A stretch of DNA of 64,000 nt, from positions 1-64,000 of the forward strand of contig NZ_JACSPW010000007.1 in the NCBI RefSeq assembly GCF_014836935.1. The letters are read 5' to 3'. Numbering within the stretch: position 1 is the first letter of the stretch; each line of letters begins with the position of its first letter. A program made the position numbers and the translations under genes. The DNA is from Solibacillus merdavium. GTDB lineage: Bacteria > Bacillota > Bacilli > Bacillales_A > Planococcaceae. The notes under the pieces were generated by a model, which was given only the letters and a program-made list of their open reading frames with translations, made no database searches and was not told the origin of the DNA. Shown here piece by piece: positions 47,928-51,047 of the stretch.

Positions 47928-48110
47928 GTGGAGAAAATCATATGGGTTAAAAGTAATATGCGCACAATCGGTGCAAAGGAAGACGATGGGCTGGCTGAAG
48001 TAAACAAATACTTGGAAGGCGGCTGGAAAGTAAAACATATTTCTGCAAGCGCTATGGGAGATAGCATGGTTTCAGGACAAGCGTATATAGTTATTGAAAA
48101 GGATGAATAA
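47928..48110 (+). CDS. small DUF4177-like protein
   Basis: 60 residues. The core is EVNKYLEGGWKVKHISASAM followed by a strand QAYIVIEKDE, matching from memory the DUF4177 pattern (L-N-x2-(G/A)-x2-GW-x-(V/L)). The function is unknown. GTG 47928 is chosen because AAGGGGTGGG lies just upstream; longer frames lack a site. Monocistronic, followed by a 12-base perfect hairpin at 48123. Confidence 0.6.
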   Translation: MEKIIWVKSNMRTIGAKEDDGLAEVNKYLEGGWKVKHISASAMGDSMVSGQAYIVIEKDE

Positions 48111-48122
48111 TAGTCTTTCTAA

Positions 48123-48160
48123 AAACCTTAGCTAAACGGAAACTCCTATAGCTAAGGTTT
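48123..48160. terminator. hairpin between convergent genes
   Basis: AAACCTTAGCTA and TAGCTAAGGTTT are perfect 12-base arms. The plus-strand continuation lacks a T-run, but it sits where both converging transcripts must end. Confidence 0.6.
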
Positions 48161-48191
48161 CGTCGATTATAAGTGAATTAAATCATTCCGC

Positions 48192-48467
48192 CTAACTAAA
48201 CCTGGCCGTAATCGTTTTGAAAATACCAATGCCGGTAAGTTTCAATATCATTTTTTCATGCCGTAAAAGATATTTCTCCACAAAAATTGCTGAGTTGTCT
48301 ATTTTAAATTCCGCATAGTTATGTAAATCTCTCGGCTTCCCGAAATGAGTCATACATTCCTGAACAGGGGGAGCACAGCACGCAGTCACTTGAATCATTT
48401 TTACGGATACAGGCTTTCCTTTTGACTGAATCCATTGTTTCGTATTAGCATCGAGCTCGATGTGCAA
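48192..48467 (-). CDS. CC/Se-motif family protein (cysteine version)
   Basis: 91 residues. The diagnostic centre is MIQVTACCAPPVQECMTHFG: a CC pair followed by APP and then a third Cys. From memory this is the CC/Se-motif family, in which some bacteria encode selenocysteine at the second position; here it is an ordinary TGC/TGT Cys, so no selenium machinery is needed. A redox or metal-binding role is suspected. TTG start after GAGGG. The four surrounding minus-strand genes do not share its function obviously. Confidence 0.65.
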   Translation of the reverse strand: MHIELDANTKQWIQSKGKPVSVKMIQVTACCAPPVQECMTHFGKPRDLHNYAEFKIDNSAIFVEKYLLRHEKMILKLTGIGIFKTITARFS

Positions 48468-48557
48468 TATAATCCCTCGCTTTCATCCCTTTTAAAATGA
48501 ATATACAACATATTTTAAAATATATGCCAATAAAGAGTAAATTCGCCATCGCAAAAG

Positions 48558-48732
48558 TTCTAATATGTCCGCTCAAACTTCTAATAAAATCTAAAATGTT
48601 CTAATAAAATTGTGATCTGCTAATATGTGTAACCGATCTTCTAAAATAAGTCCTCGATTTTCGAATATCTGTTTCAGAAGTTCTAATAAAGCACCGCGAT
48701 GTTCTAAAATAGCAAAAAAACTTCTAATATCC
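48558..48732. repeat. phased array 1: nine ~20.5-bp units starting TTCTAATA
   Basis: Unit starts at 48558, 48579, 48599, 48618, 48639, 48660, 48681, 48702 and 48722 (spacing 19-21). Each unit begins TTCTAATA or a one-base variant (TGCTAATA, TTCTAAAA, TTCGAATA) and then has 11-13 variable bases. The spacing is two helical turns. No coding capacity. The second array at 49900 has the same number of units. Confidence 0.8.
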
Positions 48733-48773
48733 GCCGTACCCTGTACACAAGGCCACCCCCGAGAAACACCACA

Positions 48774-48803
48774 AAAAAACGAACTACACGAATAGTCCGT
48801 TAC
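48774..48803 (-). terminator. terminator of the PH-domain gene
   Basis: On the minus strand ACGGACTA pairs with TAGTTCGT (one mismatch) followed by TTTTTT. It lies just after the stop at 48816. Confidence 0.6.
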
Positions 48804-48815
48804 CTAAATCTAGCT

Positions 48816-49196
48816 TTACAATGCCAAAATATTCTCAGCCAAAACTCGTTGAACCGCATAAATATTCGTCGCTTTATTGAACTTCTTTTCTATAGGGACG
48901 CTATTGCCGGAAATCCAAATTTTCAACTCCGCATCCAAATCGAATGTGCCGGCTGTTTCGATAGAAAAGTTCGTTATACTTTTGTACGGGATCGATAAAT
49001 ACTCTGTTTTCTTACCAGTCATACCTTGTTTATCAACGAGTATCAATCTTTTATTCGTAAATATAAATGTATCCCTTATTACTTTAAAAGCATGCTTTAC
49101 CGTTTCTCCACTCGTTATAATTTCATGCATATCCTTTTGAACATCTTCTGTCTTCAATTCACTTGCATTGCCCATCAAACCGTCAAAAATACCCAA
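48816..49196 (-). CDS. bacterial PH-domain protein
   Basis: About 126 residues of the bacterial pleckstrin-homology fold (DUF1696/YvbH-like): VIRDTFIFTNKRLILVDKQG followed by KTEYLSIPYKSITNFSIETA and a C-terminal helix NIYAVQRVLAENIL. Typically a cytosolic adaptor of unknown partner. TTG 49196 is preferred, with GAGGTG six bases upstream, giving the usual MGIFDGLMGNASE start; GTG 49205 would put the start within the binding site. Confidence 0.8.
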   Translation of the reverse strand: MGIFDGLMGNASELKTEDVQKDMHEIITSGETVKHAFKVIRDTFIFTNKRLILVDKQGMTGKKTEYLSIPYKSITNFSIETAGTFDLDAELKIWISGNSVPIEKKFNKATNIYAVQRVLAENILAL

Positions 49197-49274
49197 TATG
49201 CTCACCTCATCTTTTTCTGTTTTCTATATATTTTTCACAACATTCATCCAAGCTATACTCGTACAATTATGTAA

Positions 49275-49306
49275 ATAAAAAGAACACGAAAGTAATCCCG
49301 TGTTCT
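49275..49306 (-). terminator. terminator of the HEAT-repeat gene
   Basis: Read on the minus strand, AGAACACG and CGTGTTCT form a perfect stem followed by TTTTTATTT, 11 bases after the stop at 49318. Confidence 0.75.
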
Positions 49307-49317
49307 CCCAAATAGAC

Positions 49318-49770
49318 TTATTTCTTAGTTGTTGTCGTTTCCCACATATCCTTCAGCCAAGCGTCAAATTGTGCGCCTTTTTCGCCTTCATATGTGTTGT
49401 AAATATCGCTGCGCATTTTTTCTAATTTCACCTTGAAGTCCTCGTATGTGTGGTCAGCAGGTAAGCTTTTCTTAATACGTTTGAAAATTTTGCGAAGGTC
49501 TTTAAATAAATCGCCTTTAGGTGTTTCAGCTGCTTCAACCTCTTGACCCATTTTCTTTAAATGGCGTGCTGCTGCTTCACGAACCTTTGTTACTAAATCC
49601 GCTTTTGCTACATATTGTAAAATTTTAATCGTTTCATCCGATTTATATTTCGCTAATTCCTGAACCGCATTTAAACGTTCTTCCCAGTCTGCTGTTCTAT
49701 TGACAGCCTTCTTTAACTCACTGAAATTTTCAGGTAATTGTTGTGTTGATTCTTGTTTTTGTTGATTCAT
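49318..49770 (-). CDS. HEAT-repeat protein
   Basis: 150 residues, entirely helical. Residues 25-75 form a HEAT-type repeat: ADWEERLNAVQELAKYKSDE followed by TIKILQYVAKAD and VREAAARHLKKMG. The rest is charged helices. Possible protein-binding scaffold. AAAGGAGATAACATA precedes the ATG. The TTCTAATA array 2 begins about 130 bases upstream of its start. Confidence 0.75.
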   Translation of the reverse strand: MNQQKQESTQQLPENFSELKKAVNRTADWEERLNAVQELAKYKSDETIKILQYVAKADLVTKVREAAARHLKKMGQEVEAAETPKGDLFKDLRKIFKRIKKSLPADHTYEDFKVKLEKMRSDIYNTYEGEKGAQFDAWLKDMWETTTTKK

Positions 49771-49899
49771 TATGTTATCTCCTTTGTCAATGCCTTACTA
49801 GCAATGATCTACTTTACCCATTATAGCATGAAAGTGAAGCATTTACCTGCTGCAATGGATTGCTTGACCTAAAGCTGGGCGATATACCGTAATTTAATT

Positions 49900-50076
49900 T
49901 TCTAATAAAGACCTTAATTGTTCTAATATGTTGTGCAATTCTTCTAATAAAAATCGTATTTTCTAATATAAGTTTAAATTGTTCAAATAAGTGTCCGAGA
50001 TATGCTAATAAAGACCGCTAATGTTCAAATATTCTCCCCAACTCTTCTAATATCCGCACAAACTTTTCTAATAAAA
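49900..50076. repeat. phased array 2: nine ~21-bp units starting TTCTAATA
   Basis: Unit starts at 49900, 49921, 49942, 49961, 49982, 50003, 50024, 50045 and 50066 (spacing 21 except once 19). Units begin TTCTAATA, TTCAAATA or TGCTAATA. Many units alternate AATAAAG and AATATG endings. Together with array 1 it flanks the PH and HEAT genes at both sides. Confidence 0.8.
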
Positions 50077-50152
50077 TCCCAACCCTCATGCACGAAATTC
50101 CAACCCATTTCAGTTACACTCTTAATAAGCAATTTATAAGGGAGGAAATGAA

Positions 50153-50890
50153 ATGTTTCAAAATAAAACAGTCGTCATCACAGGTGCAGCGCAAGGTATT
50201 GGCCGCGCGAATGCGATTCATTTTGCCAAAGCCGGTGCAAATGTTGTCATCGCGGATATGGAGCATGACTTAGGTGTCCAACTGGCAGGGCAACTCCAAA
50301 CAGAAGGCCATTCTGCCATCTTTATAGAAACGGATGTACGCAGTGAAGAGAATGTTCGTCAAACGATGGAAATGGCAGCAAACCGTTTTGGCGGGCTTCA
50401 TATTTTAATCAACAATGCCGGAAAAGGGAAATGGGTTTCACCGCTGGAATTATCAATCGATGATTGGGATGACATTATTAATACCAACTTGCGCAGCGTC
50501 TTTTTATGCTCGCGTGAAGCGGCAAAATTAATGAAAAGCGGTGGTGCCATTATTAATCTGGCATCTACACGTGCTGAGATGTCTGAACCGCATTCTGAAA
50601 GTTATGCAGCTTCTAAAGGTGGGATTGTGGCACTGACACATGCATTGGCAAGCTCGTTCAGTGAATTAAATATAACAGTAAACAGCATTTCACCGGGATG
50701 GATTGAAACAGGAGACTACGATGCCCTCAAATCGTCCGACCATTCACAGCATCTTTCAAACCGTGTCGGCAAACCGGATGACATTGCGCGTGCGTGCCTA
50801 TATTTAGCAAACCCGGACAATAATTTTATAACAGGAACGAACTTAACAATTGACGGCGGGATGACGAAGAAGATGATTTACGAAGAATAA
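50153..50890 (+). CDS. short-chain dehydrogenase/reductase
   Basis: 245 residues of a classical SDR. NAD(P) site TGAAQGIGRANAIHF with ADMEHD after beta2 (Asp suggests NAD), NNAGKG, and the catalytic Ser-Tyr-Lys in NLASTRAEM and ESYAASKGG. C-terminal ITGTNLTIDGG. It oxidises or reduces an unknown alcohol/ketone. GGGAGGAAATGAA precedes the ATG. It is followed by a terminator at 50901, so it is monocistronic and not part of the dhb locus. Confidence 0.85.
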   Translation: MFQNKTVVITGAAQGIGRANAIHFAKAGANVVIADMEHDLGVQLAGQLQTEGHSAIFIETDVRSEENVRQTMEMAANRFGGLHILINNAGKGKWVSPLELSIDDWDDIINTNLRSVFLCSREAAKLMKSGGAIINLASTRAEMSEPHSESYAASKGGIVALTHALASSFSELNITVNSISPGWIETGDYDALKSSDHSQHLSNRVGKPDDIARACLYLANPDNNFITGTNLTIDGGMTKKMIYEE

Positions 50891-50900
50891 TAAATAAGTC

Positions 50901-50937
50901 CAATGCGCTTTCCTTCAAAAGGAATAGCGCATTTTTA
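50901..50937 (+). terminator. terminator with GCGCTTTCCTT arm
   Basis: CAATGCGCTTTCCTTC pairs with AGGAATAGCGCA, followed by TTTTTAG. The arm shares the GCGCTTTCCTT core of the dispersed repeat. Confidence 0.75.
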
Positions 50938-51047
50938 GTGTAAGCGGTTCCTATTGGTTCTATTATCGTATTTTAACAGAACTCTCTATATTTTCTAATT
51001 TAGGGGTGGTACATTAACAATTAATAAATTGAGGGAGGGCTGCTGAA

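Follow-up and report, generated by a model that had tools for sequence, protein, structure and literature searches.

Helically phased arrays of short DNA boxes, in several dialects, between the genes of Solibacillus and related bacteria

The window examined here is a 64,000-nucleotide stretch of the Solibacillus merdavium genome (assembly GCF_014836935.1, contig NZ_JACSPW010000007.1, positions 1 to 64,000). It contains two arrays of short repeated boxes in non-coding DNA (Table 1). Array 1 lies between a 91-aa ORF and a gene for a bacterial PH domain protein, and array 2 lies between a HEAT_2 repeat gene and a short-chain dehydrogenase gene. The flanking genes, whose positions follow from a simple longest-ORF rule rather than an annotation, are neighbors that are not known to be part of the element. 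An earlier note, made from the sequence alone, had described two non-coding arrays of nine units with starts 19–21 bp apart and 11–13 variable bases after each box, and this observation is confirmed. The note missed only one box variant, TTCGAATA at 48660.

Table 1. Features of the two array loci in the window.
Feature	Positions	Strand	Description	Box starts or Pfam support
Flanking ORF	48192..48467	-	91 aa, ACCAPP motif	No Pfam family at E 0.001
Array 1	48558..48729	+	Nine boxes; spacing 21,20,19,21,21,21,21,20; TTCTAATA x5, TGCTAATA, TTCTAAAA x2, TTCGAATA	48558, 48579, 48599, 48618, 48639, 48660, 48681, 48702, 48722
Box 4 of array 1	48618..48625	+	19 bp after box 3 (short junction)	
Flanking gene	48816..49205	-	Bacterial PH domain protein (bPH_1)	E 6.1e-54
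Flanking gene	49318..49770	-	HEAT_2 repeat protein	E 8.2e-07
Array 2	49900..50073	+	Nine boxes; spacing 21,21,19,21,21,21,21,21; TTCTAATA x6, TTCAAATA x2, TGCTAATA	49900, 49921, 49942, 49961, 49982, 50003, 50024, 50045, 50066
Box 4 of array 2	49961..49968	+	19 bp after box 3	
Flanking gene	50153..50890	+	Short-chain dehydrogenase	E 4.8e-64

Chance AT-rich sequence was rejected as an explanation. The word TTCTAATA occurs 15 times in the window against 5.70 +/- 2.26 in 100 shuffles, none of which reached 15, and thirty locally shuffled windows gave no chain of four or more boxes on either strand. Genome-wide, the pair pattern TTCTAATA-N11-14-TTCTAATA has 76 matches in about 25 loci, whereas its reversed control has none. 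Neither of the conditions that would have reduced the arrays to chance (random spacing of the word, or arrays at this place only) holds. Tandem Repeats Finder at a minimum score of 30 reports nothing in window positions 48000–51000, because only about 8 of every 21 bp are conserved. The arrays are also unlike a minisatellite or a coding heptad repeat, as the whole unit is not alike and the 19- and 20-bp steps break any reading frame. CRISPR arrays have repeats of about 23 bp or more with unrelated spacers of similar length, but the conserved part here is about 8 bp with a flanking preference of a few bp more, and no Rfam family matches the window.

In the stretches around the matches in this genome (G000; related genomes and the stretches taken from them carry G and L numbers, respectively) we identified 27 chains of four or more boxes, with a few loci giving more than one chain. 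Seventeen chains have exactly nine boxes, and all 17 have 19 bp between boxes 3 and 4, while their other steps are 20 or 21 bp. Their first-to-last starts span 163–166 bp, a mean step of about 20.5 bp. Of 69 distinct arrays of five or more boxes (559 units) pooled from Solibacillus loci, 45 have nine boxes. In these units C3, A5, A6 and A8 of the box are at least 99% constant, and weaker preferences extend to about A-R-W-T-B before the box and W-M after it. An orthologous nine-box array lies beside the PH gene in G003 (matching Solibacillus faecavium A46), G006, G009 and G010, and a decayed one, judged by eye, in G005. No chain of three or more boxes was present in the six other PH loci read (G001, G002, G007, G008, G012 and G015). 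Array 2 has an orthologue with the same spacing in G003 (L064).

We compared orthologous arrays to ask whether boxes and register are conserved while spacers vary, a test that the earlier note had set and that is passed strongly. In the 19 G009–G010 pairs with spanning alignments, boxes changed at 39 of 1357 sites, spacers at 374 of 1885 and 60-bp flanks at 449 of 2109 (boxes versus spacers, odds ratio 0.12, p 5e-54), with gap columns of 4, 4 and 242, respectively. Independently, 11 G000–G003 pairs gave 27 of 728 sites in boxes, 164 of 1006 in spacers (p 3e-18) and 225 of 1670 in 80-bp flanks, with gap columns of 18, 16 and 151. Twelve more of these pairs, among them window array 2, were dropped for lack of a spanning alignment, and of the 34 array gap columns 21 come from one pair (a missing unit) and 10 more from another. 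All nine boxes are constrained (1–10 changes in 134–136 sites each). The arrays were picked for having intact boxes in one species, which favors box conservation somewhat but does not explain the rarity of indels or a four- to seven-fold difference. So in the TTCTAATA dialect boxes and spacing are under purifying selection while spacers drift like flanking DNA. For arrays built on GTGCGA (see below) one orthologous pair gave too little data, and no orthologous arrays of TTACTTGC or CTCTCGT were found to compare.

In G009, G010 and two G000 loci the nine-box array is followed by a second array, usually of four boxes at 21 bp. Of 93 arrays, 46 had such a companion within 400 bp, at gaps of 42, 53, 54, 61, 63 (7 cases), 64 (2), 72, 73 (19), 74 (9), 84 (2), 155 and 166 bp. 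Up to 84 bp (44 of 46 cases) the lengths step by about ten and a half bases, or a helical turn, although the gap sequence is mostly unrelated; lengths 155 and 166 and the one of 61 fit the steps less well. The best period was 10.25 bp, and the Rayleigh vector length at 10.5 bp, computed on 45 of the 46 lengths, was 0.90. As the gaps include orthologous and copied arrays, this value is not a probability, but for eight lengths picked one per class p is 0.0022. Ureibacillus arrays show a related rule. For example, blocks of four TTCTAATA boxes at 21 bp repeat every 103 bp, and long TTACTTGC arrays run 21,21,21,21,18 or 19 bp or close to it. A single run of 56 TTACTTGC boxes in G033 (L327, about positions 406–1550 of the reverse strand), far longer than the other arrays read, has mostly the supra-period 21,21,21,21,19.

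The earlier note had proposed a curvature element, a cooperative protein-binding array or a nucleoid insulator, an interpretation that our data support in part. Intrinsic curvature from phased A-tracts is not supported and is very unlikely. The arrays are 73% A+T with helical phasing, but AA/TT power at 10.3 bp in 20 arrays was 0.0365 against 0.0322 +/- 0.0035 in shuffles, which is not significant. Furthermore, dialects such as CTCTCGT and GTGCGA share the step without A-tract boxes, and curvature does not explain the conservation of exact words. A function as RNA, with boxes in the 3' untranslated region bound by an RNA-binding protein or small RNA, is also unlikely. RNAalifold gave 0.0 kcal/mol for 26 arrays on one strand and -0.71 on the other, while 50 column shuffles of the first strand reached -0.78. 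The gaps step by about a turn of B-DNA, some arrays (10 of 92) lie between divergent genes, and in the three sites read in G154, a genome of another genus, the boxes lie beyond terminator-like hairpins. The preference for the region beyond gene ends, with the array reading against the gene that ends towards its 3' side, is what favors the RNA reading.

None of the 93 arrays lies inside an ORF of 150 aa or more. In array orientation the neighboring genes are -- in 37, +- in 29, ++ in 16 and -+ in 10 cases, so in 66 of 92 the next gene ends towards the array, whereas array-free gaps of 200 bp or more in the same loci are -- 18, ++ 14, -+ 12 and +- 5. The 92 include orthologues from three genomes; per genome the counts are 15 of 19, 24 of 38 and 27 of 35, a modest bias that is not significant in G010 alone (p 0.14). 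A simple scan found a terminator-like hairpin pointing at the array within 130 bp for 25 of 76. This location fits the insulator idea but does not show it. Hits to the 19-bp junction pattern (50 in G010 and 48 in G009) gave no evidence of a replication-strand signal, as the G010 hits are 16 forward and 34 reverse with no obvious switch along the contig, judged by eye without locating the origin.

We also identified signs that arrays are gained, lost and copied as blocks. At three sites compared by eye between G154 and G145, one array is missing as a clean block of about 200 bp, one lies inverted in place between conserved flanks and a third is replaced by unrelated DNA; in all three the block begins shortly after a terminator-like hairpin. 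In G010, the mean identity of spacers 4–7 between 36 arrays is only 0.41, yet some distant composites share spacers, the 73-bp tail and the 4-box block, with ends that look sharp. So blocks are copied and gained or lost over time, then kept under selection on boxes and spacing. These observations, together with pair matches that vary from 0 to 408 between species of one genus, could suggest small non-autonomous mobile elements whose boxes bind a transposase or recombinase and whose selfish copies are only temporarily kept. We consider this unlikely, although it is the strongest of the alternatives. A dead copy fixed at one place should decay evenly, but boxes changed 4 to 7 times less than spacers in orthologous copies and indels inside are rare. 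Unlike MITEs, which have terminal inverted repeats and target-site duplications, the three regions searched (both window arrays and one L262 composite) have no inverted repeats at their ends apart from one 76% pair with an arm at the left edge of array 2, and the one empty site has no clear duplication by eye.

Arrays with the same step but other boxes occur in other species and genera. Within Solibacillus, G001 (matching Solibacillus palustris MA9), G002 and G013 have only 10, 11 and 13 TTCTAATA pair matches in 2, 2 and at least 4 arrays, all with plain 21-bp steps where read. These three genomes carry GTGCGA arrays at 20–21 bp (28, 11 and 10 three-box matches), whereas the other 13 have none and the controls gave zero. 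Four Solibacillus genomes have no TTCTAATA pair match and one has a single match, so these arrays are dispensable in the genus. A finder that presupposes no word gave no hit in 80 kb of each of these five genomes (400 kb in total), nor in shuffles of 2.09 Mb. Elsewhere it identified CGAGCATA (107 bp from a GTGCGA array in L271), TTGGCGAATA (220 bp from a TTCTAATA array in L123, from a genome taken to be Ureibacillus acetophenoni), GTAGAA in G009 and TTACTTGC in a genome taken to be Ureibacillus manganicus. Of the 18 hits that remained in this search after removal of the words already found, 2 are decayed TTCTAATA arrays and about half are coding, tandem or low-complexity repeats from other loci.

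In 20 stretches of 20 kb from eight genomes of other genera, the same finder detected arrays in two genomes: GGATAGAA in G049, and CTCTCGT (ten boxes with one 19-bp junction), TTACTTG and CCACATAA (21,21,19,21,21,21) in G154. A later survey of 20 stretches in the family (327 kb) gave three hits, one convincing (TAATAGAC in G074), one a near-identical tandem repeat and one of low complexity, and 368 kb from 19 genomes of other families gave one low-complexity hit, though at 20 kb per genome these surveys are shallow. Three-box matches of TTACTTG occur in 19 of 261 family genomes and 8 of 19 genera. However, reversed controls hit three genomes (1, 1 and 5 times), at least one positive (G033) is a single very long array, and some others have near-identical units. 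Three-box GGATAGAA matches occur in 26 of 32 genomes of the genus of G049 with controls at zero, and CTCTCGT matches in 4 of 19 genomes of another with controls of 1 and 2 in two genomes. Pairs of TTCTAATA occur in 32 of 261 genomes, of which 12 are Solibacillus (one with a single match) and 2 Ureibacillus; the other 18 have one or two matches each, the level of the controls. The TTCTAATA-rich Solibacillus genomes are G000, G003–G006, G009, G010 and G014. Nine-box arrays spanning 163–165 bp recur in TTACTTGC (L331 and L155) and CTCTCGT (L360). Neither nine boxes nor a mean step of 20.5 bp is universal, as many arrays have fewer boxes and G118 uses a uniform 20-bp step. In that genome, eleven CACGCTC boxes (L359, position 16594) have rather similar spacers (0.68), and TTACTTGCG arrays are also spaced at 20 bp. 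Two different dialects can also lie side by side, as in G097 (L348, 7546–7819 and 14355–14640), where TTACTTGC occurs with GCAGATA and with TCATAGA.

A three-box pattern search also hit unrelated bacteria and 13 viral contigs. Of the 26 chains of five or more boxes checked there (one of which, L177, is a G003 locus), most have spacers at least 0.67 alike or lie in an ORF, as ordinary tandem or coding repeats do. Three chains of five to seven TTCTAATA-like boxes outside ORFs have spacer identity below 0.6: L106 from an uncultured Clostridia MAG, L152 from Methanobrevibacter cuticularis (with irregular steps) and L167 from Hungatella hathewayi. The class may therefore reach beyond the family. 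Only two of the 13 viral contigs have chains of five, one inside a long ORF and one with identical spacers.

Direct repeats at two helical turns resemble iterons, and the presence of several dialects in one genome raised the possibility of chromosomal decoys, that is, copies of plasmid or phage replication repeats that titrate an invader's initiator. This reading is very unlikely on present evidence. In searches that are weak for 8-bp boxes, one array each of GGATAGAA and CTCTCGT and two of TTCTAATA had no match in a plasmid collection, and GGATAGAA had none in a phage collection. Partition centromeres and plasmid iterons (parC, tubC, Rep iterons) likewise have direct repeats at whole helical turns, and blocks with a phased gap, that seat a cooperative protein complex. 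The boxes and gaps described here are phased in this way, with binding an inference from sequence alone. However, those systems are a single locus beside their own rep or par gene on a replicon, whereas these are dozens of chromosomal loci. Furthermore, an all-against-all comparison of predicted proteins in 19 stretches returned only common genes (an ABC-ATPase type in 5 genomes and one other type in 3) or syntenic neighbors, and no specific partner.

The closest described elements are the STAR elements of Staphylococcus (PMC3532100), which, like the arrays here, are short conserved direct repeats dispersed between genes, with spacers that differ between loci, stability at a locus, copy number unrelated to species phylogeny and no known function. 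STAR elements have a 14-bp GC-rich motif, T(G/A/T)TGTTG(G/T)GGCCC(C/A), with 40–44 bp spacers and no helical register in the description consulted. By contrast, the boxes here are 6–8 bp with 10–15 bp between them, recur every two turns, often in a fixed nine-box register, and exist in dialects that replace each other between species. In filaments of H-NS type nucleoid proteins (PMC5418058), the arrangement of many binding sites also directs the shape of a long nucleoprotein structure. H-NS sites are an AT-rich motif rather than short boxes in a fixed nine-box register. DNA uptake sequences and Chi sites are also genome-dispersed short words with species dialects, but they are single sites, not phased arrays, and are found inside genes as well. 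A partial search of the open literature, which left out most subscription papers and all bioRxiv preprints, so that a description could exist, returned nothing describing such arrays.

The simplest account of selection on short words, strict helical register and free spacers is a cooperative protein complex on one face of the DNA, and we consider it more likely than not that each array is a DNA-level assembly site. In this view, a sequence-specific protein would bind each 8-bp box, and because boxes sit about 20.5 bp apart, all nine protein units would lie on one face of the helix. The units could then join into one ordered complex about 172 bp long, often together with a second block of 3–5 boxes a near-whole number of helical turns away. 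At least some arrays spread by copying of a composite 9-box + 73-bp + 4-box unit. The analysis itself establishes the boxes, their register and 19-bp junction, the turn-sized steps of the gaps, the selection on boxes and spacing but not on spacers in the TTCTAATA dialect, the absence of conserved RNA structure, the location between genes and mostly beyond gene 3' ends, the other dialects with the same step in related species, and the presence, absence and inversion of whole blocks. A dialect-specific binding protein, its cooperative assembly and the role of the complex are inferred, and no such protein was found. The role we favor, a boundary or road-block complex beyond transcription terminators that stops read-through or anchors the nucleoid, fits position and orientation but is a guess and, taken on its own, doubtful.

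A broader reading, possible but somewhat less likely than not, is a previously unrecognized, family-wide chromosomal system. Many species would maintain dozens, perhaps over a hundred, helically phased arrays of their own dialect, or of several dialects side by side, each read by a matching DNA-binding protein that assembles an ordered complex beyond gene ends. Dialects would turn over between and within genera, as centromere or uptake-word systems do, so that array and reader must co-evolve or move together. If true, much of a bacterial family carries a genome-organizing or gene-boundary system that a standard tandem-repeat finder misses, because only about a third of each unit is conserved. 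Array DNA as bait, one predicted register and species dialects as built-in specificity controls would provide a clean experimental handle, and the dialect turnover would make protein-DNA co-evolution directly testable.

In G010, eight nine-box arrays lie in about 30 kb around the window's own locus (3.034–3.074 Mb; L259 and L260), well above the density of about one junction hit per 78 kb over the chromosome. In G009 (L077), the orthologue of array 1 has two 19-bp steps and seems, by eye, to be interrupted near its end by an insertion that looks like an IS element, with a repeated stretch of about 24 bp at its ends.
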